DNA of 64,000 nucleotides from assembly GCA_030272155.1 (NCBI GenBank), contig CP126203.1, positions 2,542,001-2,606,000 on the forward strand, written 5' to 3'. The translations under genes were made by a program, and so were the position numbers. This document shows positions 5,775 to 63,711 of the stretch, one piece after another. The notes under the pieces were generated by a model. The model did not search any database, had not been told where the DNA came from, and saw only the letters and a list, made by a program, of their open reading frames with translations. How positions within the stretch are numbered: the stretch's first letter is position 1; every line of letters starts with the position of its first letter. The stretch comes from Tetradesmus obliquus. Lineage: Eukaryota > Chlorophyta > Chlorophyceae > Sphaeropleales > Scenedesmaceae.

Positions 5775-8700
5775 ATGGCTGATCAAGAGGACTCGGTGTG
5801 GGCTGAGGTGCGGCCATGCTAGTGGTGCAGCATGCAGATGCTTCCAGCGCCCGCCGCCACGCCAACGGCAGCGGCTGCGGCAGCCAGCAAGCCCCGCTAC
5901 CCGCAGCAGCATAGTACCTGGCATATGCCCTGCTGACATGCATGCTCTGTATGGGTGTTGATGCTGCAGGCGGTGATCAGCGAACAAGAGTTCACAGCAG
6001 CGGCCAGCCAGCTTGAGGAGTGGAGCACAGCCAGGGACTTCCTTGCTCTGGTGGCCAACGGATGCAGGCCAGAAGTGGTGTTCGTCACAGAAGGGTGTGT
6101 TGCTATGAAAGCTCAACCAACTAATTAGCTTCGCAGTATGCAGTAACAAGAGCCTGGGCGTGCTTGCTCGTTGGTAAACAAGGCCCGCTGTATACAAGCA
6201 ACTGTATCACACGGCACTTCTGCATGATCATAGTGCCCGCAAGTACGTGCTGCTGCGTACACGACTGCTAAGATACCATTCTGCAGCCCTTAGCATTCAC
6301 CAAGTCGTCGCACGTTCTAGAACATGCGCCTCACCCCCTGCCTTCGCTGCACTGCACACAACCTGTGACACATGTGCACGCAGCTACCACAAGCAGCAGT
6401 CGCTGGCGCTCAACTTCCAACTGCCAGAGCTTGAGCGCATGGCTGATGCAGAAGACCTCCCAGAGCCGCCAAATCTGCACTGGAGCAGGTCAGCAAACAT
6501 GCTCAACCCAGGGCTGCTGCTAGAGCGGGAGCTCTCAGGGGGCTGCAACGCTAGCTGCATGCAGCGCCCGGCACGGCTGCCGCACGCGCAGGAGCAGCAG
6601 GGCAAAGCGGAGCGCTTCGGTGGGTTTATGGGGCTTACACACGGTCGTTTTGGTTGCCATTGGAATGGCATGCAGACTGCAGTGGGCGCTACACAGGCAT
6701 GCATGATGCTGCAGCAGTCGATAGTGTAACTAGATACATGCATGCTCATTGTCCTCGCAGGCACAAACTGCCAAAGGCATGCCTGCTTCACTTGTCCCAA
6801 GCGCAGTTGGCTTGTCGAAGAGGGTAGTTGGTTTTGCTCACCCCTGTGTTGTTGCTTCTTGGCGCTTTGCTGATGCTCCTGCAGGCGTGGTTGAGCGCTG
6901 TAAGCTGCTGGATGTGCAGTACATCAGCAAGCAGTACCTCCCGCAAGCAGAAGATGACAACCCCTTTGGCGAGCACAACGTTCCTGCAGATCAGCGCGTG
7001 GCACTATCTATTCGTGTCACTTTGCAGCGCCTGGCAGGTTCGCAGCAGCGTTGCAGCCCTCAAAAAACTGCAGAGCAGCAGGTAGAGCAGCAGCAGGATG
7101 ACGCAACAGAGCAGCAGCGCCCAGGCAGCTGCTGCAGCTGCCATGGCGATGAGCGCGGGGGGTGCGGCAGCCCAAGCGACAAAGAGAACAAGCAGAACAA
7201 GCAGCAGGCAGTTGCTGAAGGCCCCAGCAAGGCAGCTGATAGCACTGCAGTGCCGTGCAGCAGCAGCAGCTGCAGCGGCTGTGGGGAGGCGCTGCTGTGT
7301 GTGTTAGAGTACCCCGTGCTGCACCTGGAGGGCAATGATTACATCGTTCCTGCAGCTGTGTTTGACCGGGGCATGGCTGAGTGGTCAAGTTTGACCGCCA
7401 AGGACCGCTTTGTCATGCTGTGGGACGGCCGACCATGCTTGTGAGTGGCGCAGCATGCTGCTGTTTCAAACAGTCGAAGCTGCTGCTTCCTGCAGGCATC
7501 TGCAGTTGCAAGCATGAGCAGGCGGCTGTTAGTATGCTTCTTAGCTGCTGCTCATAGCGCATGCACTGGTTTGCCTTTGAGTTGAAAGAGGCCTGTATGT
7601 GTGGCGCCGCTATTCATGCTGCTACTGCTGCCGCCGCTGTGCTGTACTGCGCGCTCCTGCAAGGTCTTTGTGGAGGGCCACAGGCAGATCATTATCCCGC
7701 GGTCATCATCGCAGCCGCTTGAACGCTTTGGCCAACTTTTCTCATATCAATGCTGCTGCGTGTGCTGTCCTGCAGGGTTTTTGTGCAGGGCTACACTCGG
7801 CTGGCTATCGCGGCGCAGCCTCTTGAACACGTCAAGGCATTCATCTCATGTATCGCTGCTGCTGTCTGCTTGTGCCTGCAGGGGCTTTGTGGAAGGCTAC
7901 AGGCGGCGCAAGCTGCAGGACAGCTTCTGGGGCTCGCCCTGGCGCAGCATCACCATCGACTGGGTGGACAACCCAGTGGACAGGTGTGCGCTGTTTGTGA
8001 GGGTGCCATGTTGCTATGTTCAAGCGTATCTTATGCACTGCTTGTGCTCTGTTGAATTGGGTGGACAACCCGGTGGACAGGTGTGCGCTGCGCTGCCTTG
8101 CAGTTGGTTTGTCTGGCGATGGGTTTGGCTGCTGCTGTGAATGCTGTCAGTGAGTGATAAACTGGACAGGTGCGCGTTGTTTGTGGTTGCCGTGTTGTTG
8201 CCTTCAAGTGTTTGGGCGTGTGCAGCATCACCATCGACTGGGTGGACAACCCAGTGGACAGGTGCACAGCTGGCATTGTTGGTTGCTGTTGTTGTGCGCA
8301 AGCCACTTCACTGCTGCGCCTTGTTGATGGCTGTTTGTTACAACTTGCAGTGCAGAGCTTCTGCGCAGCTCCACAGCACAGACGGGTTTGGCTGAGTGCC
8401 AGTGTTGGTTGTGTGGTGTGGTGCCTGTGGGCTCCTACCTAGTTCAAAGTAGTTCAAAGTAGTTTGACCATTGACCATTGACCGTTGAACTGGGTGGGCC
8501 TGTACTGCTTGTGCTGGAAATGACTGCAGGGAGAATGACCCAGAGGACTGGGGGTATGGCAACCCATGGTGAGCTCCTGCAGAAAGCTGCATGGAGTTTC
8601 AGTCAAGGAAGGGTCCGCCAGGGATCGGCATCACAGTTGTAGGGCGTGACTGGGCTGCTTGTTCATCGGCACCAGGCCTGTTACCCTAACTGCAGCACAC

Positions 8701-10361
8701 CGCGCAGTGATCTAGTCACAGTAGGAACCTGTCTACAGCGCGGCATGCGCATGCACGCATGCAGGCACCGCAGCTTCCATGGCTGTTCCAGTTTCCTGTG
8801 CGTGCGTGTCTTGCACGGCGTCTTTATTTGGTGTTGACGCAGCTCCAACTTGTTTTGTGCTTGCAGGGAAATGGTGCGGGAGGCGTGCTCAGGCTCCAGC
8901 AAGGTCCTGAATGCTCCCTGGACCCCAGAGGGCGCTGCTGCAGCAAGGGCAGACGCACTGGCTGATGCAGCAAAGCAAGTCAAGGCAGCGAAGAAGCGCA
9001 AGCGCAATACGTGGTGCGGGGTGAAACATGGGGCTTGCTGGCTGTGCCTTGTGGCACGTGCTTGTGTGCCTGTGTCCTTGTGTGCTGTGTGCTTCTGTGC
9101 CAGCTGTTCTGGTTGGCATGTGCAAAAGGTCAAGAGCTGCTGGTGTGATGGCAGGCGATTTGATGTGCTGCGTGTTACCTTTCTGTGTTGCCTCCCGCAA
9201 CATATGACTGCTCCACTGTTTTCCTGCCTGGGCATGTGGGCAACTTGTTGTTGGCGTCGTTTTGCCGCGCCTGCAGTGCTGCTTGGACCCAACTTTCACC
9301 AAACTTTCTCATCACTCCTCCCACCATTCCTGCAGGGGCAGGGCCGAGGGTGACTTCTACTACGAAGCAGAAGACGACGAGGCTGCAGAGATCTCCGACA
9401 CGTCATTCTTCTTCGATGATGATCCTGAGGACTTTATAATCCACAGTAGCAGCCGCAGGGCCGCAGCACGCAGCAGCAGCGCCAGAGGCTCCGGCCGTCC
9501 TCGCAGCAGCGGCGGCGCACGGGCCCCACGGCAGAGGCGCAGCGATTCAGCAGCTGCAGGCGGCGGCACTGCATATGGCAGGCAGAGGGGAGGTGGGGGT
9601 GAGGCAGCAGAGGGAGAGCCGTCACACAGTTGGGGGAGGGAGCTGGTTGGAGTGCCCGAGGATGTGTGTTTGGTTTGCAGGAAAGGGAGCGAGGCAGGGG
9701 AGCTCGTGAACAAGCACACAGGCCACAGCTACCAGAACTGCTGCAGGAGGTACCACGTGGGGTGCCTGCTGCTGCTGAACGCTGCAGGCATACGCACCGC
9801 GTACCTGAGCAAGCAGCAGCTCAAGAAGATGCAGACCGCGCAGCAGCGAGGCGCAGCGGCGCAGCCGCCTGCGGCAGCAGCAGCAGCAGCAGGCGGTGGC
9901 GTGCCGTGTGATGGCCTGCTGGGGAAGCTGCAGCAGCTGCTGCAGCGCAAGGACCCTAGGGTCAGCCCTGCGCTTGCTGCTGCAGTAGCTGAAGCTGAGC
10001 AGGCAGCAGAGCTGTACAAGAAGGATGAGGTCAGCCTGGCGTGCCCGGCGCACTGCTGCCATGGCTGCGGGTGAGCTTGCATTTTGTTTTTCACTTGTTA
10101 CTTCTGGCTTCCAACTCAGTTGCTGGTGATGCAACAGCTGCTCTAACTTATCTTGTACACACACTGGACAGCTGGGTGTGTGGTGCTTGTGTTGATGATG
10201 TTGCAGGGGTTAGCCGGGTCCCAAGCGCACGCAGCATCTGCTTGACAGGCAACTTCCACAGTTGATCCCGCAGGGTGTAATTCTTAGACTGTCATCCTGG
10301 AAGCTGATGCTGTCCGCCTAGTCAGCGCTGCACTGTCAACACGCAGAGCTTGACTTTACCA

Positions 10362-10394
<33 letters not shown>

Positions 10395-10952
10395 TTGTTT
10401 CCTGCAGGCTCAACGGCAAGCACGAGTTCCTCGTGTGGTGCTGCTGCTGCTGGGTGCGCACCTACCACTGCCGCAACTGCATGCCGATGGGCGCACAGCG
10501 CGTGACAGTGGCAGGCAGAGACTACATTCGCTGCCCTCACTGCGTAGCAGCTGGCGCACCTCTGCCTGTACCACTTATTGTTGTGCCAGCAGCAGCAGCA
10601 GCAGCAGCAGGTGCACCAGCAGTGAAGCAGGAAGCAGCGGATGGCTTAGCTGCTATGCTGGCAGCAGCAGCTGCAGCACCAGAGCCTTCCGAGGCCGCTG
10701 CAGCAGCGCTGGCAGCAGCAGCAGCAGCAGCAGGTGCAGCAGATGCAGCAGATGGCTTAGATGAGGAAGAGCAGCATGCAGAGCAGCTGCTGCTGCTTGC
10801 TACACACAGCAGCCGGGAGCCTTCTGCTTCCAGTGACCAGCAGCAGCAGCAGCAGCAGCAGCATGTGAAGCAAGAGCCTGATGTGCTTGACGAGGTTTTA
10901 CAGCAGCCTCACAAAAGGGTGGTTGCTTCAGAGGAGCCAGGCGAAGCTGCTG

Positions 10953-10983
<31 letters not shown>

Positions 10984-11975
10984 TGGTGTGTCTGATGCAT
11001 TCAAGCCAGAAATGCAGAAGCTTGCAGGACTGGAGCTTGAGCTGCAGCTGATGCAGCAGCAGCTGGGAGCGCCTGCGCTGCCAGCAGTGCTTGAGGCTCC
11101 TCTGGATGCTGCAGCCAGTGCAGATCTTGATGAGTCAGCTGCTGCTTCAGAGGAGGTGGTAGATGCAGGGCAAGGTGCTGTGGCAGCAGCAGCAGCAGGG
11201 CCAGCAGCAAGTACGGCAGCAGAGTCCTCAGGTGCTGCTGGCAATGCAAGTGGCGATGTTATGACAGAGCTCATGCCTGATGTAGAAGAGCTAGCAGGGC
11301 TGAAGGTGGAGCTGCAGCTGCTGCAGCAGCAGCTGGCGCAGCTGCAGGCAGCCGTGCAGCAGAAGCAGGGGGCGGTGCAGCAGAAGCAGCAGCAGCTGGA
11401 TGAGAAGCAGCAGAAGCTGCTGCGGGAGCGAGGGCTGGTGCCAGCAGGGGTGCCTGAGGTGGCAGCAGCGCCTGCACGCGCAAACAGGCGCAAGCGATCT
11501 GCAGGTGCTGCTGCTGCTGCTGCTGCTAGTGTCTCAGGCACTGCAAGCATGACAGCAGGTCTGCCAACAGCAGCAGCAGCAGCTGCTGCTGATGTGGCAA
11601 TGCCTGATGCCCCAGAAGATCCAGAGGCAGCGGCTCTCTTTGCGCTTGACATGCTCGCTGTTGCAGCTGAAGGTGCAGGCGCAGCAGCAACCCCAGCGCA
11701 GCCCTCTCGAGCAGCAGCAGCAGCAGCACCTGAGCCGGTCGATCCTGCAGCAGTGGCGGCAGCAGCAGCAGCAGCAGCCGCTGCGCAGATGCCGGATGAG
11801 GGGAATGTGGCGGCTATGCCTGGCTGGCTGCTGCGCAGCTTGCAGGATGGGGAGCTGCATACCCCCAGCTTCAAACTGGTGCCAATAGATGATGATGAGG
11901 CCGGCAGCACAGCTGCCAAGCTGCGCCACGTGGCAGCAGCAACTGCACGCCTGCCAAACCACTGCAAAGCGGTTG

Positions 11976-12006
<31 letters not shown>

Positions 12007-12514
12007 TGGGTGGGGCTTGGCGCTGGGTGCTCCGCGCTGCTTCTGGCTGATGGGTGACCTGGCGAAAGCTGAGTCAGCAAAGTACAAGGTTTCAGGATCA
12101 TGGGGAGGATGTCCGATCATACATGTGGACACACCAGATGAAGGCGTGTTTGGCTGTTGCATTGCACTGGAGCACCCGCTGCCACTGCAGCCTTCTGCCG
12201 GCATGCTTGCAGCAGCAGCAGCAGACGGTGAGGAGCAGCAGCAGCAGCAGCGGCGGCCGCGTGTGTGGCTGCGCTGCTGGCGGCCCGTTGCACAGGACGG
12301 TGTGCAGCAGCCGAGGCAGAGCCGGCAGCAGCAGCAGCAGGGTGATACAGGGGAGCGAGAGAGGCCCGGCAGGCAGGGCTGGGACTGGCAGGTGCTGGTA
12401 AATGGGCTGCCGTATCCAGTTGGGCAGAGCAAGGAGGGGCTGGAGCTGCAGGCGGGGGATGAGCTGACTGTGCAGGGTGTGCGGCTGAAGCTGGTGGCGC
12501 AGCAGGCTGCATGA
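5775..12514 (+). CDS. BRWD/PHIP-type cryptic Tudor protein with PHD-like zinc region and FHA-like C-terminus
   Basis: Exons 5775-5807, 5970-6094, 6384-6619, 6885-7440, 7882-7983, 8530-8568, 8867-9010, 9336-10070, 10408-12514 join in phase to 1358 residues. Residues ~40-375 follow the cryptic Tudor module of PHIP/BRWD1 in order: GCRPEVVFVTEGYHK (PHIP has PDVVYFRQGHE), VERCKLLDVQYI, then NDYIVPAAVFDRG, LTAKDRFVMLWDGRPCLGFVEGY and GSPWRSITIDWVDNP ending in PEDWGYGNPWEM. In PHIP this module reads methylated H3K4. Residues ~520-690 are Cys/His-rich: CLVC, CCRRYHVGC, CPAHCCHGCG and CWVRTYHCRNC, resembling a PHD followed by the C5HCH element of NSD/EDM2 proteins. Residues ~700-1190 are Ala/Gln linkers with leucine-rich helices. 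The last ~100 residues (IIHVDTP, WQVLVNG, GDELTVQG) look like a degenerate FHA domain. Neither WD40 repeats nor a bromodomain is present. A nuclear chromatin reader is inferred; the two terminal domain calls are less certain than Tudor. Confidence 0.72.
7655..7870 (+). repeat. Two degenerate copies of the start of Tudor-gene exon 5
   Basis: The true exon 5 begins at 7882 with a frame reading LGFVEGYRRR. Upstream, after similar CTGCA acceptors, lie 7661-7700 (reading VFVEGHRQ) and 7776-7815 (reading VFVQGYTR). Both diverge after about 30-40 bases and have no matching donor, so they look like intronic relics of exon 5 duplication. Confidence 0.7.
8050..8265 (+). repeat. Copies of the 3' end of Tudor-gene exon 5
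   Basis: The exon 5 end, which encodes TIDWVDNPVD plus a GT donor, recurs at 8057-8080 and, more completely, at 8224-8261. The second copy keeps the same reading frame and donor. A shorter scrap lies near 8155-8175. All sit in intron 5. Confidence 0.75.
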
Positions 12515-12567
12515 GCAGGGTAGGCATGAGCAGGCAGGGTTGATGATGATGCGGTGATGGTGCCAGC

Positions 12568-12615
12568 TGACTGTGCAGGGTGTGCGGCTGAAGCTGGTGG
12601 CTCAGTAGGCTGCGT
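12568..12615 (+). repeat. Copy of the end of the Tudor-gene last exon, downstream of the stop
   Basis: About 45 bases repeat, with few differences, the final coding stretch at 12466-12512 (encoding LTVQGVRLKLVAQ). Here the frame ends in TAG instead of continuing QAA-stop. It probably lies in the 3' UTR. Confidence 0.8.
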
Positions 12616-12726
12616 GAGAAGGTCTATGGTCCGGTGATAGCAGTGGCATCATGGCTGCGTGCCAGGCTGTCCTGTTGAATGATGAAGCAGCGCAGCTACG
12701 GCTGATGGTTGTCGGTGAGGAAAGGA

Positions 12727-14519: not shown

Positions 14520-15218
14520 ATGGAGGTTGTGCGTGTGCCAGCACTGTCAGACAATTACGTGTGGCTGCTGCATGAGCCAAAGAGCGGCCTGACAGCAGTA
14601 GTAGACCCAGCAGAAGCGCCGCCAGTCAATGCAGCGCTCAAGGAACGGTGCGCAGTGACAAGCTTCAGCTTCAGCATGTGTACACGCACACCGCACTGTC
14701 AGCACATGTGCGCACACCCTGCTATGGTGCATCTTGCTGATGACGAAGGACCCATGAATCCGCATCTGCAGCATGTGCAGTTGGTCAACACGCACCACTT
14801 TAGCTGCATCCCCCTGTTGACCCACTGCAAGCGCTACCGTCCTATGGCTTTAAATCTGCATTGCCTGCACACTACTGCCGTGGCTTTCGTTCTACACGTG
14901 GCGTGGGCCTGCTACCTGCCATTGCCGGCTGCCCAGCGGCTGACGCCTGGAGTGTGTAATCAACGCGCACCACTCTTTCCTCCCCCAGACACGACCCACT
15001 GCACCCTGCTGCTGTGGCTCATAAAAACTTGGTTAGTACATGAACACTACACTGTGTGGTGGTGCCTGCTGCATGCCACTGTGCAGGGGCTGGAGCCTGG
15101 ACTTTGTCATCAACACGCACCACCACTTTGACCACACGGGTGGCAACCTCGAGCTGAAAAAGCAGCACCAGGGCCTGCAGGTGGGCCCAGCTGCTGACCT
15201 GTAGCCACAGCAGCAGCC

Positions 15219-15252
<34 letters not shown>

Positions 15253-15328
15253 CAGCAGCAGCAGCAACAGCAGCAGCTATGCACAGCAGTGCCATCCCAA
15301 GAAGGAGTACCAGGGCCTGCAGGTGGGG

Positions 15329-15372
<44 letters not shown>

Positions 15373-15529
15373 TTTTGGCAGCACAGCAGTAGGACGAGAT
15401 ACAAGTACCAGGGCCTGCAGGTGGGGCCAACTGCTGACCTGTAGCCACAGCAGCAGCCACAGCAGCAGCAGCAGCAGCAGCTTAGAACAGCAGTGCAAGC
15501 TGAAGAAGCAGTACCAAGGGCTGCAAGTG

Positions 15530-15583
<54 letters not shown>

Positions 15584-17388
15584 TTGGCATCGCATGGCGA
15601 GCTCAAGCAGTGAATTTTTCAAATCATGGCGCCGTGTCTGGATGTCGCCGTCATTTCCGGCATCACCTTATATAGTATGCTGACGTTGGGGTGTTTTGCC
15701 ATACCTACATGGGCCCTGCCTCACTGTTCCTTTGACTGTGTGTTGCAGATCGAGGGGCCGCGTACGAATGCAGCTTGGTGAGACACCATGACATGCTGAT
15801 GCTAGGGCAGCACCAATCTGACTGACGCCTGCTGTTGCCTTGCCTCACTGTGATGTGTTTGATTGCAGATTGTGGGCCCGCGTGCGGATGCCGCGCGCAT
15901 CCCCGGCATTGATGTGCAAGTGGGCGATGGGGACAGCTGGCAGTTTGGGCAGCTGACGGCGCGCGTGTTTGACACACCGGGGCACACGCGCGGTCACATC
16001 ACATACTGGTTCCCTGACGCCAAGGCGCTGTTTCCAGGTGCGTGCAGAAGCATGGTGGCAGTGCGCTGCTCTGCCAGCGTACTGCAGCCGTGCATGCTGC
16101 CGCATGCTGTGTTTTGCTCAAAAGTGTGGACGTGCGTGGCGCAACCTTGCTTGCTGGTGCTTCTGCTGGATACGTGTCACCGGGTGTGCCTGTCGACACG
16201 CGCTGGTGTTGAACAACCAACTGCATGTTTGCGCACCGCTACCCTTGCAGTCTGCCCTGATGCTCCCGCCTTTTGAATAGTTCAATGTCATTCTCACGCC
16301 AGGTGACACGCTGTTTGCGATGGGCTGTGGCCGCCTGTTTGAGGGCGACCCGCCCACCATGTGGGCTAGCCTGAGCAAGCTGCTGCCTGCTGACACACTG
16401 CTGTTACTTTTATGTCATTTTCTCGCCAGGTGACACACTGTTTGCGCTGGGCCTCGGCCGCCTGTTTGAGGGCGATCCACCTGCCATGTGGCCAGCCTGA
16501 GCAAGCTGCCTGCTGACACACTGCTGTTACTTTTATGTCATTTTCACGCCAGGTGACACGCTGTTTGCGCTGGGCTGCGGCCGCCTGTTTGAGGGCGATC
16601 CACCTGCCATGTGGCCAGCCTGAGCAAGCTGCCTGCTGACACACTGCTGTTACTTTTATGTCATTCTCACGCCAGGTGACACGCTGTTTGCGCTGGGCTG
16701 TGGCCGCCTGTTTGAGGGCGACCCGCCCACCATGTGGGCCAGCCTCAGCAAGCTGCTGCCGCTGCCACGGGACACGCTGGTCTACTGCGCGCACGAGTAC
16801 ACGCAGAGCAACGCGCGCTTCGCGGTGCACATCGACCCCAACAATGACGCGCTGGCGGCGCGCAAAACGGCGATCGATGAGGCACGCAGCAAGGTGGGTT
16901 GGTTGGTGCGCAGGGTTGTGTAACACAACACACGTGAAGTGGTTTGGCCTGGTTGCTGTGGATATGCTCTCCTGATTGTTCTGCACATCGACACCAAAAT
17001 GACGTGCTGGCGGCGCGCAAGGCTGCGATTGATGAGGCGCGCCGCACGGTGGGTGGCGTTTCTGGCCCGCATTGCGTTCAGTTAGAAGACAACTCGAGTA
17101 TGTTGCCAGCACCTTGCAGCAGCCTCGAGCCATGGCAGCAGCCTTGCAACACGAGCTCCTTCCATATGCATGCAACACTGATGTCAACACCTGTGTGCTG
17201 CCTGTATGTGTGTTTGTGTGCAGGGCGAGCCAACAGTGCCAAGCCTGCTGGGGGATGAGTTTGACACAAACCCCTTCTTGCGGCCTGGCAATAGCGGCAT
17301 ACGCGCGTCAGTGGGCGCCAACAACGACACACCTGACTTTGAGGTGTTTGGGCGAGTCAGGGCAGCCAAGGACGGCTTCAGGGGTTGA
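14520..17388 (+). CDS. GLX2: Hydroxyacylglutathione hydrolase (glyoxalase II)
   Basis: Hydrolyses S-lactoylglutathione to lactate and glutathione, the second step of methylglyoxal detoxification. Exons 14520-14647, 15087-15180, 15869-16037, 16676-16893, 17224-17388 join in phase to 257 residues, the usual length of the family. The metallo-beta-lactamase motif THHHFDH (residues ~53-59) is intact. The second-metal His lies in PGHTRGH, the bridging Asp in GDTLF (about D132), and a further ligand in [16 protein letters not shown] and the C-terminal substrate region (NPFLR) are present. The ATG at 14520 starts right at the conserved [15 protein letters not shown], so no targeting peptide is visible and a cytosolic form is likely; an upstream leader exon cannot be excluded. 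Introns 2 to 4 are loaded with copies of exon fragments, listed separately. Confidence 0.93.
15181..15600 (+). repeat. Intronic array: copies of glyoxalase exon 2 end interleaved with CAG tracts
   Basis: The last bases of exon 2 (encoding KKQHQGLQ) with the following donor region recur ending near 15320, 15420 and 15530, each followed by (CAG)n. Two of the junctions also share GCTGACCTGTAGCCACAGCA. The CAG tracts differ in length, the longest spanning about 15533-15580. This reads as a tandem duplication whose units then underwent triplet expansion. Confidence 0.85.
15738..15785 (+). repeat. Degenerate copy of the glyoxalase exon 3 start
   Basis: A TTGCAG acceptor followed by a frame reading [10 protein letters not shown] mirrors the true exon 3 start ([10 protein letters not shown] at 15869). 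It then runs into a stop and has no donor. Confidence 0.75.
16303..16675 (+). repeat. Three tandem copies of glyoxalase exon 4 start upstream of the true exon
   Basis: Copies begin at 16303, about 16431 and about 16553, each after a CGCCAG acceptor, with a spacing of 122-128 bp; the true exon starts at 16676. All keep the catalytic GDTLFA and GRLFEGDPP codons. Copies 2 and 3 share the same small deletion (CCATGTGGCCAGCC), so one derives from the other. None has a donor that continues the gene. Confidence 0.88.
16978..17055 (+). repeat. Copy of glyoxalase exon 4 end
   Basis: The stretch encoding [14 protein letters not shown] followed by GTGGGT repeats the end of exon 4 ([14 protein letters not shown]) with its donor, inside intron 4. 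Confidence 0.8.
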
Positions 17389-25704: not shown

Positions 25705-25740
<36 letters not shown>

Positions 25741-31105: not shown

Positions 31106-31158
<53 letters not shown>

Positions 31159-42516: not shown

Positions 42517-42559
<43 letters not shown>

Positions 42560-44541: not shown

Positions 44542-44579
<38 letters not shown>

Positions 44580-45133: not shown

Positions 45134-45166
<33 letters not shown>

Positions 45167-45411: not shown

Positions 45412-45476
<65 letters not shown>

Positions 45477-47853
45477 GTCTCGCAGCCGCACATGGCGATT
45501 GTGGGCGCCAACGCCTTCAGCCACGAGAGCGGCATGCACCAGGACGGCATCCTCAAGCACCGCGAGACCTACCAGATCATGACCCCGGAGAGCGTGGGAC
45601 TGCCCAAAGACAGTGAGCATCCAGCTGTTTTTTTGTAGTTTTTACTTTGGATCTGGACATAGTAGCATGATGTAATAACATTGGTCAAGTATTATTATGT
45701 GTTGTGGCATCCTCAAGCACCGCGAGACCTACCAGATCATGACCCCTGAGAGCGTGGGACTGCCCAAAGATAGTGAGTTCGGTCAGAAAGCATATCAGCT
45801 TCATGTTTGATCAGTTGTGAACTTGTTTGGTGTGGCGAGACCTACCAGATCATGACCCCTGAGAGCGTGGCCTGCCCGAAGCCAGTGAGCATCTGAGTAG
45901 TGTCTGAACTCTTAAATTTGAATTCGAGCTCACCCTGTTATGTTGTATGGTGTACTGCAACCAGCGTTGTGCTGGAGTAATTATCTTGGCGCAACAGCTA
46001 TCATGCCTGCACATCCCCTCTCAACATGTGTGTACTGCATGCTTGTATTGCCTGCATTGTACTGCCTGACCTGCAGCCAGCATCGTGCTGGGCAAGCTGT
46101 CTGGGCGCAAGGCGGTGTCCAGCCGCCTGGAGCAGCTCGGCTTCGGGCTCAGCGCAGAGGAGGTCAACGACGTGTTCAAGCGCTTCAAGGTGAGCTTGAT
46201 GTAACTGTAGCCTATGTGTGCCTTTGGTCTAATGCATGTCAGAAGGTGTGTGTGCATCGCTATGGCAGCAGCTCGGGTTTGGGCTGAGCGCGGAGGAGGT
46301 CAACGACGTGTTCAAGCGCTTCAAGGTACGCCACGGTTGGCTGGCTTCGGCTGGCTTCGGCTAATCTGGCGTTGGATTTGAGCTTGATCCTGGATGTACC
46401 TGCCCACGCTCCTGCAATTTATGCCGCACTTGTGGGATCCCAACATGTGCCTTCCCTTCCAATTGCAGGCGCTGGCGGATGATCGGCAGGCCATCACTGC
46501 TGATTGCTTGATGGGCTTGATTATGCTAAACCACGAGGAGTGCCATGCATGATGTTATAACCTGCTTTTATTGGCATTCGCAGGCGCTGGAGGACAAGAA
46601 GAAGAACGTCACCGATGATGACTTGATGGACCTTGTCACGCTGGACCACGAGGAGTGCCAGAATCCATGACCATTGGACGGACCTGCTTACACTGCTGCA
46701 ATGAATGCTGCATTACTAACAAAAAAACTCATGCCGTTCGTGCTTTGCAGGCGCTGGCGGATAAGAAGAAGAACGTCACTGATGATGACCTGATGGACCT
46801 TGTCACTCTGGACCACGAGGAGTGCCAGGGACTGGAGCAGGAGGAGTGCCTGGGCCACGGCCAGTGGGAGCTGGGCTACATTCAGGTGAGGCTGTTACTT
46901 ATGGTGTTATAACATCAGTAGTAACATGTCAGTAACATCACAGTACTATGTTGCCATGTTGAGCATGACCAGGAGGAGTGCCTGGGCCACGGCCAGTGGG
47001 AGCTGTGCTACATCCAGGTGAGGCTGTTACATTGTTATAACAAAATATACTGTTACACAATATAACATGTCTTAATATATTTTGTATGATGTTGCTGAGT
47101 GCACCATGAGGAGTGCCTGGGCCACAGCCAGTGGGAGCTGGGCTACATCCAGGTGAGAGAGTGTTACTTGTTACTTATTGTGTTATAACAATGTTAGTAA
47201 CATTTTGGTAACATCACAGTATCAGGAGGAGTGCCAGGGCCACGGCCAGTGTGAGCTGGGCTACATTTAGGTGAGGCTGTTATGTTTTGCAGTATAACAT
47301 TGTTAGTAACATTTCACTTGATGTATGATGAGTGAGCATGCACAGTGGCAGCTTCTGCTGTCATGATTGTTGGTGTGGGTGCTGATCACTGCTGTGTTTG
47401 TGCACGGCACCATGCATGCGTGCACACACCCCTGCAAGCAACTCCTGCAGTGCCATTACTGCGCGTCTGCGCTCACTGCTGCTGCTGCTGCTGCAAGCGG
47501 TGCATGGCACTATGAATGTGCCTACCAGCGCTGTCGCTCTCTGCTTTCAGGACCCACGCATTGCCATACATAAGCCCTGACTGCTGCTGCTGCTGCTGCC
47601 GCTGCTGCTGCAGGTGGTGCATGGCACCATGAATGTCCCCACCAGCGCAGTCACGCTGAAGGGCCCCGACGGCGTCACCAGTGTGGCACAGGGCGTGGGC
47701 ACAGGTGCGGTCAGGTGTTGTTTCTGCCTTGGTTGAATACCTTTATTACCACGCAAAACGCTAATCATTGTCTTCTAGTTGTTCCGAGCTATAAGGGCGT
47801 GGACAGCACCGTGCACAACTCAGCTGTCGCTGCTTTGCGCGCTCTCCATTGAC

Positions 47854-47900
<47 letters not shown>

Positions 47901-49108
47901 AGGCCCCGTCGACGCCACCTTCAAGGCCATTGACAGCCTTGTGAAGGTGAGACACAGCAGCAGCAGCAGCAGCAACAGCGTGGGAGAGTCGGCTGCAGCT
48001 GCTCCATGGCGCCTGTCTACAGCATCTGCTGCACAAACTGCAGATCTATAACAGACGGCATACACGCTCTTCACATAACATACACGTACCCTTGCTTGAA
48101 CATAAAAGTATCAATAAACCAATTTGGTTTACAATCATGCAGTTGGAGGCGCAGCTAGTGGACTACTCCGCGCAGAGCCTTTGGGACGGCAGCCAAGCCC
48201 CTGTCACCTCACACCAAGAAACATGTTGTAACATTGTTTATATTCCCTTCCACAACATACAAAAAGGACAACAGGTTGTGCAAAGAATTGCTTGTCATGC
48301 TGCAGTTGGAGGCACAGCTAGTGGACTACTCCGCGCAGAGCCTGTGGGACGGCAGTCAGGCCCCTGTCACCTCAACACCAACAAACATGTTGAAATATTG
48401 TTTATATTCCTTTTAAAAACATACAAAAGGGCAATAAATTATGCAAACATTTGCTTGTTGTGCTGCAGTTGGAGGCGCAGCTGGTGGACTACTCCGCGCA
48501 GAGCCTGTGGGACGGCAGCCAGGCGCCTGTCACTGCCCGCGTGGCCATCCAGCCTACAGGCGCAATGGGGGAGCTTGCGAAGCAGCTGAGGGGTGGCGGC
48601 AGCGTGGAAGCCAAGCCTCTGCAGTTCTCAGGTGCGCTTGTGGTTGTTGGGTCTTGCAGTACAGCTGCAGCTGCGGAGTGCTGCTGCTGCTGCTGCTGCT
48701 GCTCTGTGTACACAAATGTGCGTAGCCTAGGCTTGCTGGTGGTTTTATGTTTTTTGCTGGATGAATGCTCGCGCGGAGTCGGCAGAATGGAGGATCAATC
48801 AAATGCAAATCTCTCTTGTGCCCTGCAGGCCAGGACCTTGATGAGGACAGCGTGGTGGGCTCTGGAACGCCTGCTGCTGACTGTCTTGGTGTATATCTTT
48901 GCTGTGTTGTCGATGCATTGCAGGCCAGGACCTGGATGAGGACATCGTGGTGTGCTCCGCGCGTGCCTACCTCACCGCGCTCAACAAGATGATCGGATGG
49001 GTCAACGCGGTCAACCGCAAGCGCGGCGCTGCCAGCAGCAGCAGTGCGGGCAGTGCCGGCAAGGAGGAGCAGCAGCAGCAGGACAAGGCGCACATGGCCG
49101 TCAGGTAG
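38670..49108 (+). CDS. IPMS: 2-isopropylmalate synthase, plastid
   Basis: Condenses acetyl-CoA with 2-oxoisovalerate, the committed step of leucine synthesis. Sixteen exons: 38670-38764, 39020-39144, 39606-39757, 40676-40840, 42564-42649, 42937-43058, 44195-44299, 44582-44675, 45174-45270, 45486-45612, 46077-46189, 46751-46885, 47614-47704, 47903-47946, 48469-48631, 48924-49108. They sum to 1899 nt, exactly 633 codons, close to plant IPMS. Exon 1 ([19 protein letters not shown]) is a transit peptide. The catalytic HMGL-type barrel shows [14 protein letters not shown], the metal ligands in STHCHDDLG (about H265, H267), [14 protein letters not shown] and [13 protein letters not shown]. The LeuA dimerisation/leucine-feedback domain follows ([52 protein letters not shown]). 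The tail is a Ser/Gln-rich extension ending KAHMAVR. Nearly every intron holds partial copies of a neighbouring exon. Confidence 0.95.
39855..40165 (+). repeat. Two copies of IPMS exon 3 3' part
   Basis: 39862-39975 repeats 36 codons ([20 protein letters not shown]... NEVQ) with an intact frame and GT donor. 40066-40163 is a more decayed copy that also keeps its donor. A short scrap of the exon 3 start lies at 39508-39540. Confidence 0.9.
40276..40575 (+). repeat. Two copies of IPMS exon 4 5' half upstream of the true exon
   Basis: 40280-40370 and 40481-40566 both start after a TTGCAG acceptor and encode [18 protein letters not shown] and RTWEAVRHA. They lose similarity at the HA codons; the first ends in a stop. 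The true exon 4 starts at 40676, a period of about 200 bp. Confidence 0.92.
40886..42287 (+). repeat. Twelve tandem copies of IPMS exon 4 3' end, with a 723-bp higher-order repeat
   Basis: The 3' end of exon 4 ([20 protein letters not shown] then DQ and a GT donor) recurs ending near 40951, 41078, 41198, 41318, 41438, 41558, 41678, 41801, 41921, 42041, 42161 and 42281, a period of about 120 bp. Two of the copies (ends 41318 and 42041) lack the first part. Blocks starting about 40921 and 41644 match almost base for base with a fixed offset of 723, for example AAAGGAGGTG at 41211 and 41934. The array fills nearly all of intron 4 (1723 bp). Confidence 0.95.
42519..42558 (+). repeat. (CTG)n tract fused to the IPMS exon 5 acceptor
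   Basis: About 13 CTG units run into GGCTAG, the acceptor for exon 5 at 42564. Confidence 0.9.
43150..43585 (+). repeat. Four copies of IPMS exon 6 3' end
   Basis: The end of exon 6 ([15 protein letters not shown] plus donor) recurs near 43155-43200, 43298-43346, 43394-43437 and 43530-43577. Similarity falls with distance from the true exon: the last copy has lost the donor and has many changes. Confidence 0.9.
43803..43901 (+). ncRNA. Long near-continuous hairpin in IPMS intron 6 (possible small-RNA precursor or MITE)
   Basis: Position i pairs with position 87704 minus i from 43803/43901 inward to 43850/43854, around a three-base loop, without any bulge. Of 48 positions 37 are Watson-Crick pairs, five are G-T wobbles and six mismatch. 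The outer arm is TGATTGAGTTATG. No duplicated exon fragment overlaps it. It may be a microRNA-type hairpin on the intron, or the palindromic core of a small non-autonomous DNA element; no flanking target duplication was made out. Function is inference. Confidence 0.55.
44050..44130 (+). repeat. Decayed copy of IPMS exon 7 start
   Basis: After CCCGCAG, a frame reading [20 protein letters not shown] mirrors the true exon 7 ([20 protein letters not shown] at 44195). Both metal-ligand positions are visibly altered around it, and there is no donor. Confidence 0.9.
44752..44800 (+). repeat. Copy of IPMS exon 8 end
   Basis: Codons for [13 protein letters not shown] followed by GTGAGT repeat exon 8 and its donor exactly. 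Confidence 0.92.
45414..45473 (+). repeat. (CTG)20 tract just upstream of the IPMS exon 10 acceptor
   Basis: A pure 60-base CTG run followed by CTTGTCTCGCAG, the acceptor of exon 10. It is the longest pure triplet run in the window. Confidence 0.95.
45700..45892 (+). repeat. Two copies of IPMS exon 10 3' end
   Basis: 45705-45771 repeats [20 protein letters not shown] with the donor (AGTGAGT). 45836-45888 is a shorter copy with a one-base loss in the VGLP region. Confidence 0.92.
46265..46328 (+). repeat. Copy of IPMS exon 11 3' end
   Basis: [19 protein letters not shown] codons followed by GTACGC repeat exon 11 (ends 46189) with a GT donor. Confidence 0.92.
46465..46670 (+). repeat. Two copies of IPMS exon 12 5' half
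   Basis: 46469-46552 (decayed) and 46584-46664 ([20 protein letters not shown] intact) precede the true exon 12 at 46751, each behind a CAG acceptor. Confidence 0.9.
46970..47275 (+). repeat. Three copies of IPMS exon 12 3' end
   Basis: Codons for [15 protein letters not shown] plus GTGAGG recur ending near 47017, 47153 and 47271. Intervening bases also share TTGTTATAACA-like AT-rich motifs, so the repeated unit is about 125-135 bp. Confidence 0.92.
47400..47535 (+). repeat. Two copies of IPMS exon 13 5' end
   Basis: VHGTMHA (47400-47425) and [15 protein letters not shown] (47494-47545, behind a CTG run and GCAAG) mirror the true exon 13 start [15 protein letters not shown] at 47614. Confidence 0.8.
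48140..48372 (+). repeat. Two copies of IPMS exon 15 5' half
   Basis: 48143-48208 and 48304-48368 encode [20 protein letters not shown] with TGCAG acceptors and match the true exon 15 at 48469. Both break at the same codon (VT). Spacing is about 160 bp. Confidence 0.92.
48827..48870 (+). repeat. Copy of IPMS exon 16 5' end
   Basis: CTGCAG followed by codons for [10 protein letters not shown] repeats the true exon 16 start ([10 protein letters not shown] at 48924). Confidence 0.9.
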
Positions 49109-49262
49109 ACGATCGGCTGGGTCAACGCGGTCAACCGCAAGCACGGCGCTGCCAGCAGCAGCGGTAGTGCGGAGGGCAAGGAGCAGCAGCAGCAGCAGGA
49201 CAAGGCGCACATGGCGGTCAGGTAGATGGTCGGCGGGCTCAGCGCGGTCAACTGCAAGAGAT
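49109..49262 (+). repeat. Copies of the IPMS terminal coding segment after the stop
   Basis: Directly after the stop, 49109-49225 repeats the segment encoding [17 protein letters not shown]... DKAHMAVR including its own TAG. A third, short copy (VGGLSAVNCKR) begins at 49227. The period is about 118 bp. Confidence 0.92.
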
Positions 49263-54776: not shown

Positions 54777-57700
54777 TCAGCCTGAGCATGGAGCCTGAGG
54801 AGATTGAGCAGCTGGACCCCTCTGACCCCAGCCTCGTGCGCGCCACCATAGGCAGCGTGAGGCAGCCGGACTACCCCTTCACACAGCTGGGAGAGGGAGA
54901 CAACAGGGTGCGCTAGTCAGCATGTTTGCGCTAATGAAACATGCAAAATTTCGGTAGCTTAATAGGTACTAGGTACTACCAGGTGTTCAGTAGTAAGCAT
55001 GTTCCATGTCTGTTGCATGTGGTTTTAATGGGTGCTTGCAATTGCTGGCAGTGTGAGGCAGCCAGACAACCCCTTCAAAGCTTGGCGAGGGAGACAACAG
55101 GGTGTGCAGACTGGGTTTTACTTCAAAATGTTGCGGCGGTCTAGTGCTGCTTGGAACATGCTGCGCTTGTGCTGTATAGATCTTGCAGGAGTGAATGAGT
55201 GGTTGCTTGCAGAGGTTGCCTGAGCTGCTGGTCGCGCATGGCTTGTAGTTTGCTTGCTGCCGTGCCTCTGCACCACACATGCACAGCTGTTTCCCATGCT
55301 GACGAATTGCTGTTGTTGTGTTGCCGCTGCTCTGCTGCTGCGCTGGTGATAACCAATCAGGTGATAAGTGTGGAGCTGCTGCTGGCTGCACTGGAGGCCA
55401 GTGGCGTGGACAATGCACGGTGAGCACGGCAGATGCATTCAGTGTCTGCACACACAATCAACTGGTGTATTACATCAAACACGCAATTGATTAATATAAA
55501 ATTGTGTGTGGAGCTGTTGTATGGCATCAGCTTCCATTGACCTGTCAACTGCTCTGAGCATTTGGCATGATGCAAGCTGGCAATTTACAGTGGCTGCACT
55601 CACCCACGCGTATCTGACCTCGCCAACAACACATCACGGCTGCTGCTGCTGCTGCCGCAGCATCGAGATCGAGGGCGGCCACGAAATCCCAGTGCTCGAC
55701 AACAGTGCGCTTGGCTGGTGCATCGACATCCAGTGCGCGGGGCTGCGGCCAGCGCCAATCCGGCCAGGCAGTGAGGTTGCAGAGGCCGCAAAGATGACGG
55801 CTGCTGGTGCTGCTGTTGCTGAGGGCAGCGATGACCTGGTGGTGCTGCGAAGGGAGCTGCTGCGGCTACCCAAGGCTGTAGCGGTATGTTGTTCAGCGCC
55901 GCAGGCTTTTCTTTTGTTTCATTCTGTTTGTCGCGCTGCTTTCTCCCGCCGCCTGTCGTTTCGAGCTGTGTTGTGTGTTGTATGCTTCCATCTGCCATGT
56001 GTTTATGGTTGTTTGCTATGGTGATTGGCCAGGCAGCGAGGGGGCAGGTGCTGCTGTTGCTGAGGGCAGCGATGACCAGGTGGTGCTGCGGAGGGAGCTG
56101 CTGCGGCTGCCCAAGGCTATAGCGGTGTGTGCTTTGGGTTTTTTTTGGTTTCATTTTGTCCCGCTGCTGTGCTTCATCCTATCTTGCCTTGCAACTTTCC
56201 CGCAGTGTTCTTTGTATGGTATGTATGCTCCACTGCTACCTTCACTAGTTGCTGATTGCTGATCAACCTGAAAATATATGTGTTGCTGTGCTGCATTGCA
56301 CGCTTGCAGTTGCAGGATGAGTTTGGCTGGATCAGCTTCTTCCCTGGACTCATCCTTTAAAGTGACCCTGCTCCTCCTTCAAACTCCATGCCTCCATGCC
56401 ATGCCTCGTGCTGTGCTGCATTGCTTTTATTTTTGCGCGTGCAGGTCCAGGATGAGTTTGGCTGGATCAGCTTCTTCCCTGGTCCGTTCAGCAAGCTGAC
56501 CGCCTGTGCAGACCACAACTTGGTGGCACCTGTGATCGGCACGCAGTGGCTGACCTGGCACAGCGACGACGTGCACTTCCGGTGAGGTCAGGGTTGATGT
56601 TGGGTACTTCATTAAACTAGCTTGCTGATGTTTATATTGGTTGTAGTGCAGAACAGCACAGCAATGAGCAGTGGCTGACCTGGCACAGCGACGACGTGCA
56701 CTTTAGGTGGGTCTTATACATTTACAACAGCTTATCACTAAGGTTCTGCGTTACACGCAGCGGAACATTTGAACACTACACCTGGTACTGGTGTACCTTG
56801 TTTGTATGCTGGACTGGTTGAAACTGCTGTTGGGGCAGTTAGCGTTGGTGTTCAGTGCAGCGCAGCACAAGCTGCAGTCTGCAGCGAGCGTTGAAATGTG
56901 CTGCTGGCATGCTGATGTTGATCCTTTTCTCTTACTTCTGCACACATGCAGGTACTCGCTGGCCCCCGCCAGGGCGTACGCAGAGTCAGTGGAGGAGCCG
57001 TCGCGCTGTTGGCGCGCTGATGCATTACTGGTGTTTGCTTGCTTCCCTGCTTTGCCCATGCGTACAGGCACTCGCTGGCCCCTGCAAGGGTGTATGCAGA
57101 GTCGGTGGAGGAGCTGTCGCGCTGTTGGCGCGCTGATGCATTACTGGTGTTTGCTTTCTTCCCTGCTTTGCTCTTGCGCGCAGGTACTCGCTGGCCCCCG
57201 CAAGGGCGTATGCAGAGTCAGTTGAAACAGCTGGTTACGCTGCTGGCATGCTTATGTCATCTGTCTTTCTTGCGCTGCAACATTTCCTGCAGGTATTCGC
57301 TGGCTCCTGCCAGGGCGTATGCTGAGTTGGTGGAGGAGCTGTTCTCGCTGCTGGCGTTTTTATGCATCCCTGATGTGTCCTTGCTGCTTGCAACGGCCTC
57401 GCAGGTACTCGATGGCCCCCGCCAGAGCATACAGAGAGTCAGTTGAATAGCCGCCTGCGCTGCTGGCGTGCGTTTGTAACCCGTTTCTTGCCGCTGTACA
57501 CAATACTATTTCTTGCAGGTACTCGCTGGCTCCTGCCAGGGCGTTTACAGAGTCTGTGGAGGAGCTGTTCTCGCTGCTGGCGTTTTTATGCATCCTTGCT
57601 TCCCTGCTTTTCTCTTGCGTGCAGGTACTCGCTGGCCCCCGCGAGGGCGTATGCTGAGTCGGTGGAGGAGCTGTTCTCGCTGCGGGAGCAGGGCTTCGTG

Positions 57701-61629: not shown

Positions 61630-62574
61630 GAGTGGATGCGCAGAGCATGAAGGAGCGGCATGCATATTAAGGCTCGTGCTACCCAATCTCCTTTCCCAGC
61701 TGTGCTGCCAGCTGTGCTGCCGGGTGGCTAACATGTGAAGCAGCTGCGGCAACAGCTCTCCTCCTCAGGTTGAACTCACAGCAGATGGGCTTGGCCATGC
61801 CAGCAGCTGCTGCCGCTGCTGCTGCCGCCGTCGCTGCTGCTGCTGCTGCGCGGTGCCGCGCCACCTCCCTCCGTAACAACATGCCCACGCAGGTGTGTGT
61901 AACGTCCCTCAACCCTAGACCACAAACCCAAGCCCTGCACCCAAGCCCTGAACCGTATTCCAAAACTTAAAAGCACCTCGCTCTGTGACGATACCCACAC
62001 AGGCATCAATGGATGTGGGCACCTCGCCCGCCTCAACCCACCTCGCAGCAGATGGGCCTGATCATGCCAGCAGCTGCTGCCGCTGCTGCCGCTGCTGCTG
62101 CTGCTGCTGCTGCGTTGCACCCCATCACCATGTGACGGGACCCTCGCAGGTGTCTGCAACGACCCTCAACTCTAAAACACATACCAACAGCCCCAACCGC
62201 AAGCCCTGAAACATCAACCCACCTCGCTCTGTGACGATGCCCACGCAGGCATCAATTGAGGTGGGCACCTGGCCCCCTGGGCCGACCTTGTCCTTGTCAT
62301 ACACAAGCAGGCTGCCCACGTCATTCTGGGCCATCTGCAGTCATTAACATCGTGCAAATGACACATGTTATGTTACATCAGTGGTTTTCAAAGTTGCAGG
62401 TTCAAATGTTGCTGTTTCCCGCCTTGTCCTTGTCATACACCAGCAGGCTGCCCCACATCATTCTGGGCCATCTGCTGCCGCACCTTCTTGACCGCGTCCA
62501 GCACCATGCACTCGTCAGACACCCACAGCCGCTTGCCGTCATCCTTGGTCTGCAGCACCTCCCAGATCTTGGTC

Positions 62575-62631
<57 letters not shown>

Positions 62632-63711
62632 GGTGAAGGCAGGAGGGAGGCGAATCCATTGGCCGAGTGTATCTGCAATAGCCAGGCACAGGGTGCAAGG
62701 CAGCTGCTGCACCTTGGTGGTTGCAGCGTGTGATGATTCCTGCAGTGCCAGCATTTGAACTTCATATGGCGGGGCACCATTCAACCCATGAAACCCAACA
62801 CCAACCTACACAGCAGCAGCGTGTGATGATTCCTCCAGTGTCAGCACCCGGACTTTGAAGAAACCATCACAGGCTGGCGCTATGTGCGCAAGTTTCACAA
62901 ACGAGATGCATTGAGCAGCGCCATGAAGACGTAACAAGGACAGACCGTGGGTCAGACACCAAACACAAGCAGCAGTGCGCTAGTGATGTGCATCTGATTG
63001 CTGGGGTACGCGTGTGGATGAGAGTAACATTAGCTGCCCCTACGCTGCAAAATGACGCTGGAAGCACCGTACCTGGAAGGAGCACTCGTCTCGGTCTTCT
63101 GAGTGCTCAAATGCTGGCTCTGATGCCTTGCATTGAGCAGCACTGGATGTGAAGGCCTGGGTCACCAGGGGCAGTGACAGGGTCGGGCGGGGCAGAGCAG
63201 CAGATGGGACAAAAACAGCACGATGTTAAAGTTATAGTAGTTGATATTTAAGACCGGTGTCGCGCGCTGCAAATGCATGCGCGATAAGAGAGCCGTGCTG
63301 TCCCGAAAGGGAGGGCAAGAGAAGCTTTCCAGAATGCACTATGGACACTGGTACAGTCCTTGCTGCGCGTACAACAGCGGATCAATGAGTTCAGTCGCTG
63401 TTGTTGAGTGAGTGGTGCGCTGCTGTGCTGGTAATGCTCAGGAGTTACCGAGAGTGCCACAAGTCAGCACCGAGGGTCGATCTTGGCAGGTTGACAGCAA
63501 AATGTAATATGTAGCTGCTAAAAAGCATAATGATTCAGTTGAGAGCCCTAGGTGCAGCGTAAATGCGCGGATAGGGTTTCGACAGGCAGGCCAGGCAAGT
63601 GCTGCTGCTGCTGCACGTCCGAGGAGCTAGCACGGCCTCGCTCACCCGCTGCAGAGGTAGGAGGCTTCCAGGTGCAAGCAGAGACCTGCCAAGGATCCTG
63701 AGCTGAAGCAT
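60803..63711 (-). CDS. CBSX3: Two-CBS-domain protein, CBSX3-like, probably mitochondrial
   Basis: Exons in transcript order: 63711-63646, 63156-63073, 62739-62713, 62573-62484, 62334-62223, 61426-61266, 60925-60803; 663 nt, 220 residues, close to Arabidopsis CBSX3 (about 206). Exon 1 encodes MLQLRILGRSLLAPGSLLPL plus QR, an Arg/Leu/Ser-rich amphipathic leader typical of a mitochondrial presequence. CBS1: KIWEVLQTKDDGKRLWVSD, MVLDAVKKMAQNDVGSLLVY, CVGIVTERDYLKKVMLKG. CBS2: VSKIMTPQEKLAVLTPQHSV, LEAMDLMVKYNVRHVPV, MAGVLSMKDVIKVLLDD and the ending MKDYIHGSW. CBSX proteins bind adenosine nucleotides and, in Arabidopsis, activate thioredoxins; here that is by analogy. Exon 3 is a 27-nt micro-exon (ESSHAATTK). 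The insert after VYDKDK (VGPGGQVPTSIDA) is longer than in the plant protein. The donor after VLDAVKK was chosen because only it restores the family alignment. Confidence 0.88.
60980..61195 (-). repeat. Two copies of CBSX3-like last exon start
   Basis: Behind CTGCAG or CTATAG-like acceptors, frames IDPKAANMARVPSAKDVIKV (61063-60990) and a decayed IDPSVANMAGVLS (61180-61115) mirror the true last exon (IEPHAANMAGVLSMKDVIKV at 60925). The period is about 125-140 bp. Confidence 0.92.
61495..61545 (-). repeat. Copy of CBSX3-like exon 6 start
   Basis: The bases antiparallel to GGCCCTTGAGCATGACCTTT repeat the YLKKVMLKGL region of exon 6 (starts 61426). Confidence 0.8.
61770..62155 (-). repeat. Copies of CBSX3-like exon 5 3' end with GCTGCTGCC-type runs
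   Basis: The exon 5 end (CVGIVTER plus donor) recurs in decayed form near 62010-61978 and 61895-61860. A roughly 280-bp unit with CAGCAGATGGGC and a GCTGCTGCCGCTGCTGCTGC-type tract appears twice (about 61780-61860 and 62045-62125). Confidence 0.8.
62433..62483 (-). repeat. Coding-like copy of CBSX3-like exon 5 start retained right behind exon 4
   Basis: Immediately after the chosen donor the intron continues in frame as VRQQMAQNDVG, then a one-base difference shifts the frame before LVYDKDK. The true exon 5 start is at 62334. Confidence 0.85.
62578..62630. repeat. (AGC)n tract at the acceptor of CBSX3-like exon 4
   Basis: Fifty-three bases of pure AGC on the plus strand, hence CTG in the transcript, run directly into CTCCAG, the acceptor of exon 4 at 62573. 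Confidence 0.95.
62800..62875 (-). repeat. Copy of the CBSX3-like micro-exon region
   Basis: KVRVLTLEESSHAAAV mirrors the stretch around the 27-nt exon 3 (EVQMLALQESSHAATTK at 62765-62713). Confidence 0.85.

Follow-up and report, generated by a model that had tools for sequence, protein, structure and literature searches.

Partial exon copies beside splice junctions in Tetradesmus obliquus and their possible origin in repair between diverged haplotypes

Why should the genes in one stretch of an algal genome carry pieces of their own exons in their introns? The stretch in question (the window) comprises 64,000 nucleotides of Tetradesmus obliquus, positions 2542001-2606000 of contig C13 (GenBank CP126203.1), and the genome used for comparison consists of 17 contigs (104.66 Mb). 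A genome announcement puts strain DOE0152z at 208 Mb and UTEX393 at approximately 109 Mb (PMC5552973). A preliminary description made from the letters alone had listed over 100 partial exon copies in eight of ten genes. The explanation favored here, at a probability of roughly 0.45, is that the copies arose by tandem duplication through failed repair between homologous chromosomes, with exon and copy drawn from different haplotypes and the copies now inert.

An exact gene model is in hand for 2-isopropylmalate synthase (IPMS), the 16 exons of which match a public 632-aa protein without a difference. The best match to the predicted IPMS carries the title 'hypothetical protein OEZ86_009166 [Tetradesmus obliquus]'. 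The gene and its copies, in window coordinates, are as follows.

38670-49108, forward strand: IPMS gene, 16 exons, with 32 copies in introns and past the stop; exact translation to P0001; Pfam families HMGL-like and HCS_D2.
39900-39974, forward strand: copy of the last 75 nt of exon 3, with 10 differences, all at synonymous third positions.
40088-40162, forward strand: second copy of the end of exon 3.
40279-40552, forward strand: two copies (40279-40352 and 40479-40552) of the acceptor and first 74 nt of exon 4.
40676-40840, forward strand: exon 4, its 5' part repeated upstream and its 3' part downstream.
40886-42279, forward strand: array in intron 4, in which the final 48-69 nt of exon 4 together with the donor recur 12 times, about 117-139 bp apart.
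43153-43344, forward strand: two decayed copies of the end of exon 6 (43153-43199 and 43295-43344), one with an in-frame stop.
44056-44107, forward strand: copy of the start of exon 7.
44742-44793, forward strand: copy of the end of exon 8, in which similarity ends at GTGAGT.
45706-45884, forward strand: two copies of the end of exon 10 (45706-45770 and 45835-45884).
46267-46325, forward strand: copy of the end of exon 11, with 4 synonymous and 0 nonsynonymous differences.
46584-46658, forward strand: copy of the start of exon 12.
46967-47270, forward strand: three copies of the end of exon 12.
48143-48370, forward strand: two copies of the start of exon 15 with a period of 163 bp, each with 4 synonymous and 0 nonsynonymous differences.
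49157-49225, forward strand: copy, past the stop, of the end of the final exon.

Both kinds of copy described earlier are present in this gene, exon 3' ends repeated downstream (23 of 32) and exon 5' ends repeated upstream (8), together with a third kind past the stop codon (1). All 32 lie within existing introns or beyond the stop of the exact model, and the public protein includes none of them, each exon being represented once. Among the 120 best IPMS matches listed, the only other T. obliquus protein (P0004) is 73% identical and comes from a different contig, which makes it too distant to be the source of the copies. In the two copies of the start of exon 4, third positions account for 5 of 5 and 5 of 6 differences.

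Two further observations concern this gene. The region of the large array (40772-42289) has a higher-order repeat of approximately 716 bp, and within it the 30 nt after each donor are variable, in contrast to the following 22 nt and the exon part, where there is little variation. This pattern hinted at a hypervariable zone beside splice sites, an idea that was dropped when the pooled profile proved to be low throughout the intron with no special dip. Separately, a 24-bp in-frame tandem duplication lies inside an IPMS exon (46808-46854), where the public protein has extra residues relative to a 93% identical relative (P0002).

To place the window against the rest of the genome, it was compared with itself alongside 25 random 10-kb stretches, with simple repeats masked and pairs less than 2 kb apart counted as local. 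The window contains 103 direct local pairs and no inverted ones, and 20.9% of its bases fall in such a pair; the absence of inverted repeats agrees with the earlier view that this is no obvious transposon. Local direct pairs were found in 18 of the 25 random stretches, inverted pairs in one only (L022), and a single 601-bp query taken from a copy array returned five matches, all inside its own locus. A census of exon ends in the window (score of at least 50, exons shorter than 28 nt left out) yielded 81 copies in seven of nine predicted genes (1, 5, 22, 2, 32, 15 and 4 copies), all of them direct. The predicted genes at 436-1951 and 2996-5085 have none at this score, and the control of reverse-complemented exon ends gave 0 matches. 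Four of the nine genes also have copies beyond the stop codon. The figures first given for copies and for genes were of the right order, with exact counts that depend on threshold and gene models.

Beyond the window, genes were predicted ab initio on masked sequence by a home-made hidden Markov model (HMM) in the window and 21 random stretches, those with repeat arrays or high GC (L007, L021, L022 and L030) being set aside; junction tests also omitted L028, which has repeats within coding sequence, leaving the window and 20 stretches. Exons shorter than 45 nt were left out of the junction, profile, simulation and codon tests. A copy accompanies 94 of 435 splice junctions (47 of 130 in the window and 47 of 305 elsewhere), for a total of 154 copies, compared with 0 on the opposite strand, and 10 of the 20 usable random stretches have them. 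These 154 copies form the gapped set; a looser ungapped scan found copies at 114 of 450 junctions and supplied a second set of 132 intronic copies. Local direct matches of 30-mers tell the same story: on the exon side, within 15 nt of the junction, 32% of 30-mers at donors and 27% at acceptors have one, compared with 10-16% more than 60 nt inside exons, 7-13% in flanking intron, 4.4% in intergenic DNA and 0.14% in the opposite-strand control. Exon-end copies are real and are not confined to the window. The ab initio finder called copies as exons in IPMS, where the 16-exon model replaced it, and the same trap awaits other users of such gene finders. One protein search gave no match at E ≤ 0.001 among 298 candidates, and a further search none at E ≤ 1e-30.

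The recognizable part of a copy stops close to the splice site. For the best copies at 87% identity or more (33 at donors and 33 at acceptors), the median match covers 55 and 67 nt of exon but only 6 and 5 nt of intron, respectively. The pooled profile gives the same contrast, with 58-72% of 12-mers kept in exon, 26% and then 8-20% in intron, and 0-1% in the control. Units at splice junctions had been described as spanning the junction; junction units do exist, but what can be recognized of them ends 5-6 nt (medians) into the intron. The splice dinucleotides are intact in 134 of 154 copies, which together hold 3 stop codons and 20 gap events, 17 of them of 1 nt.

Spacing has a lower limit. The nearest copy lies 86-300 bp away, with 93 of 94 at 100-300 bp and one at 86 bp. 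Successive copies have a median spacing of 140 bp, with 5 of 154 below 90 bp, which bears out the regular period reported earlier. Matches lying clear of every predicted exon peak at that size as well: their mode is 100-149 bp, and 40-69 bp accounts for 26 of 910. The limit of about 100 bp is thus not obviously an effect of splicing, with the reservation that this class includes copy-copy pairs. The claim that copies decay with distance from the true exon did not hold up: no trend was found (Spearman -0.09, p 0.28), and in the 34 arrays with at least two copies, divergence is greater at the farthest copy than at the nearest in 16, smaller in 13 and equal in 5.

The intron parts of the units were also compared. 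In 36 of 55 adjacent pairs they are similar (p<0.05, a weak similarity) and in 16 of 55 they are not (p>0.2). The 36 pairs suggest that most copies began as ordinary tandem duplicates in direct orientation, each made up of an exon end and adjoining intron. In some arrays the whole unit is repeated at 94-100% identity, intron included, and the inference of a continuing local tandem duplication finds support in arrays that are 95-100% identical over whole units. At the level of 45-mers there are 33 non-overlapping groups with at least three distinct members, 14 of them at 87% identity or more; the largest arrays have seven members in one case and 13 in another.

What history gives an exon and its copy so similar a coding part beside so dissimilar an intron? 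To examine ordinary decay, neutral duplication on one chromosome was simulated with substitutions and indels under five settings, and the same detection was applied. At exon differences below 3%, the simulated introns are unrecognizable in 7-18% of cases compared with 52% of the 21 best copies observed; at 3-7%, the values are 17-44% and 71% of 24.

In the gapped set, differences per site at the three codon positions are 0.042, 0.033 and 0.152, whereas the neutral expectation from the spectrum of the intron parts (123 differences) is nearly equal, at 0.063, 0.066 and 0.063. Codons with a single difference comprise 359 synonymous and 150 nonsynonymous changes, a ratio of nonsynonymous to synonymous rates (dN/dS) of 0.16; this is the Ka/Ks comparison that had been suggested at the outset. 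The synonymous share of 0.705 (junction bootstrap 0.658-0.749, with 0 of 5000 replicates at or below 0.45) exceeds the 0.27 expected of a purely drifting pair and the 0.43-0.44 expected when the exon is perfectly constrained and only the copy drifts. It is 0.735 with the best copy per junction. Synonymous and nonsynonymous counts are 210:92 in the window, 149:58 elsewhere, 236:103 for the 104 copies lying mostly outside predicted exons, and 67:33 for the 32 copies of the exact IPMS model (59:31 when the large array of 12 contributes a single copy). Because only one of two copies on a chromosome is functional, a single-chromosome history cannot go much below a dN/dS of 0.5 unless the copies are selected; copying in cis followed by drift should give about that value, and the observed 0.16 lies below it.

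Exon and copy therefore probably diverged while both were coding. They would have done so on different haplotypes, because two lineages of a single-copy exon that both code are alleles. The share of divergence time in which both coded is estimated at 69% (61-75) to 88% (79-95), depending on the dN/dS assumed for working exons. A history of two phases is in keeping with this, divergence with both coding and then a shorter drift of the copy, and the frameshifting gaps with few stops would fit a recent loss of coding by the copies. The haplotypes could have been joined at the birth of the copy, through repair templated by the homolog, or later, through allelic replacement of the working exon.

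The route envisaged is as follows. A break in an intron would be repaired from the homologous chromosome, with synthesis running from the partner's intron into the partner's exon before the strand comes off; as the introns are mismatched, the strand could not anneal, and end joining would close the break. The product would read, in order, exon, own intron stub, partner's exon end and partner's intron. Short tandem duplications, almost never below 100 bp, would thus arise often across the genome. Those inside coding sequence would be harmful and lost, and those that run from the end of an exon into intron sequence, or beyond a stop codon, would leave the mRNA unchanged and survive, to be spliced out and decay. 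With noncoding DNA very different between haplotypes, only the coding part would be recognizable, and copies would give the impression of ending at the splice site.

The focus on exon borders that was first reported is real, and it extends beyond the window, but it does not need an aimed process: border units are tolerated and visible, wholly noncoding units invisible, introns are similar in the 36 pairs above and similarity ends also at stop codons, which carry no splice signal. Targeting of exon borders was accordingly set aside as a mechanism, since coding conservation gives the same profile. Neither targeting nor a decoy function is needed, which does not prove that aim is absent. More tentatively than the origin of single copies, the whole may be a genome-wide record of failed inter-homolog repair, with allelic fossils beside about one-fifth of splice junctions.

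Several observations from the species and from other systems are in keeping with this proposal. One T. obliquus strain is described, in the portion of the source available, as diploid with extensive heterozygosity, and a phased assembly of a strain of the species reports divergent haplotypes in its title. In Caenorhabditis elegans, according to the available passages, homologous repair that is aborted and then closed by polymerase theta, in the absence of HELQ, leaves tandem duplications from about 100 bp (PMC8654963). The T. obliquus genome has two polymerase-theta-like loci (C4:2768702-2778993 and C9:2090769-2101913 of G000), each with DNA_pol_A and HTH_61 matches on the same strand and the DNA_pol_A domain approximately 8-9 kb 3' of the helical domain of POLQ/HELQ type. 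An exon-by-exon search, which gives a lower bound, found no free-standing HTH_61 match in the genome, and a possible absence of HELQ is only a lead.

Other results weigh against the proposal. The allelic identity of the copies is putative, gene models other than that of IPMS are ab initio products of the home-made HMM, and the worm duplications have a median size of about 1 kb in the passages seen (PMC8654963), larger than those here. Thirteen junctions (19 of 154 rows) combine a nearly identical exon part (synonymous divergence 0.015) with an unrecognizable intron part, which allelic divergence alone does not explain. Intron homology is significant in 79 of 181 pairs, a set chosen by ungapped exon matches, and their intron-to-exon substitution ratio of 1.6 (0.163 versus 0.101) is the neutral prediction for exon-copy pairs; the contrast in these pairs is mostly in gaps (0.15 versus 2.43 events per 40 nt). 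Changes private to copies in the 33 multi-copy groups number 90 synonymous, 122 nonsynonymous and 1 stop, those private to exons 30 synonymous and 15 nonsynonymous; for the copies this bias is weaker than in the comparison of pairs. Finally, the ungapped set gives 0.103, 0.084 and 0.185 at the three codon positions (245:158), rates near the expectation for a neutral copy.

The alternative that survives best, though it is doubtful, is ordinary tandem duplication in cis across splice junctions, with neutral decay of the copy and constraint on the working exon alone. The ratio of 1.6 where introns can be aligned and the ungapped codon rates are as it expects, intron parts are detectably related in the 36 pairs, and several loci have young full-unit arrays (L/d above 1 at 94% identity or more). 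The exon-intron contrast, however, was missed by all five simulation settings, and the synonymous share, with the same sign in the exact IPMS model, lies well above 0.43-0.44; this alternative is already strained by the dN/dS of 0.16. Two amendments that keep the history on one chromosome were rejected by argument: gene conversion between exon and copy, as a source of the exon-limited similarity, would be expected under selection on the exon alone to drive dN/dS towards 1 and not to 0.16, and alternating use of the copies in an array leaves one functional in cis at a time, with a floor of about 0.5.

If the copies still served as alternative ends of exons or as elements in splicing, purifying selection acting on them now would produce the synonymous bias directly, and this reading would suit the intact splice dinucleotides and a stop count below that of neutral drift over the whole divergence. 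It is nevertheless improbable. The copies are partial exons with variable inner ends, where inspection found no consistent splice site; most of their gaps are of 1 nt; some lie past stop codons; none of the 32 is in the public IPMS protein; and a copy's donor would bring a stretch of intron into the mRNA. The partial exons, the 1-nt gaps and the IPMS protein also tell against the selection for extra splice-site units that the preliminary description had entertained. Cassette exons were considered too; the inner ends of the copies, judged by eye without a statistic, showed no consistent AG or GT.

If the assembly had strung two diverged haplotypes together in introns where they could not be aligned, the low dN/dS and the mismatched introns would be accounted for at once, and at least one strain of the species is, on the partial source cited above, highly heterozygous. 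Judged from the assembled sequence, such an artifact is unlikely and would be a poorer bet than continued use, in that two haplotypes do not suffice for groups of three to 13 distinct members; regular periods and whole-unit repeats also tell against it. Least credible is a copying process specific to exon ends, for instance via RNA or splicing intermediates, which would suit similarity ending 5-6 nt past the junction and the 16 pairs without intron similarity but is opposed by the 36 pairs that have it, by copies that end at stop codons and by the synonymous divergence that a fresh copy would not carry.

Tandem duplications produced by end joining, and duplications that cross splice borders, are already known kinds of event (PMC4974935, PMC9013439, PMC8654963, PMC5730883, as represented by the passages available). 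Intron gain in a potato RdRp gene (PMC4974935) likewise involved a short duplication across an intron-exon boundary with inherited splice signals; here, in contrast, duplicates lie inside existing introns, past stops or in arrays, they are pervasive with separate coding histories, and the 16-exon IPMS needs no copy-derived intron, no new intron using a duplicate's splice sites having been found in IPMS, the sole gene tested. Tandemly duplicated, mutually exclusive exons (PMC9013439) also repeat exon sequence alongside, partly unannotated, whereas the copies here are mostly partial ends with many frameshifting gaps and no sign of exon use; complete exons with both splice sites and an intact frame were not found, only partial ends with 1-nt gaps. 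The duplications of helq-1 worms (PMC8654963) are direct and tandem from about 100 bp up, but reach 10 kb, and the passages at hand claim no diverged-homolog template. Those from end joining of staggered breaks (PMC5730883) are short and direct as well, but were copied in cis with no prior synonymous divergence. Minisatellites share the regular period, and some arrays here reach 12 copies; in contrast, a single copy is usual per junction (61 of 94), and resemblance is much closer in the coding part than elsewhere in the unit. Nothing recognized as describing copies in T. obliquus appeared in the literature searched, which did not include the genome paper (Biondi et al. 2024), and within that literature no precedent was seen for so high a density, for copies made of partial exon ends or for a coding history of their own.

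If the proposal is correct, the introns of a diploid alga would preserve in legible form a history of recombination between diverged haplotypes, and sequence divergence, with no exon-aware machine, would explain why the copies seem limited to exons. Repair without noncoding homology, intron growth and a tolerated load of decoy splice sites would become testable. Short local duplications can in any case confound annotation and copy-number calls in T. obliquus, a biofuel species.

Copies in the other window genes are listed below. A Pfam scan of the reverse strand at 23001-32902 returned 0 families, and the P450, LpxC and CBS names are therefore readings of the predicted proteins by eye.

12565-12617, forward strand: copy, past the stop, of the end of the final exon of the gene at 5775-12514.
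16303-16626, forward strand: start of an exon (16676-16893) of the hydroxyacylglutathione hydrolase gene, copied three times.
24011-24186, reverse strand: two copies of an exon 3' end in a P450-like gene.
26805-27261, reverse strand: four copies of one exon 3' end in the P450-like gene.
29749-30191, reverse strand: four copies of one exon 5' end in the P450-like gene.
56313-56703, forward strand: copies of the 5' end (56313-56347, upstream) and 3' end (56668-56703, downstream) of exon 56445-56581, both 100% identical.
56952-57580, forward strand: five copies, at a score of at least 50, of one exon 5' end in an LpxC-like gene; a looser scan adds a sixth at 57404.
62422-62453, reverse strand: exon-end copy in a CBS-like gene.

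In the CBS-like gene, a repeated segment (62286-62338 and 62422-62475) flanks a predicted intron on both sides, and the CAG of that intron's acceptor is present inside the upstream copy too, which may point to intron gain by duplication. Repeats of other kinds were also seen. CAG/CTG triplet runs are abundant in exons and introns of the window (for example, at 45414-45475 and 15208-15580). Among the random stretches, L022 and L030 contain long direct repeats with spacings of 4282 bp and 3682 bp, multiples included, and L021 has an array with spacings in 279-bp steps over 59% of its 10 kb, possibly a satellite.

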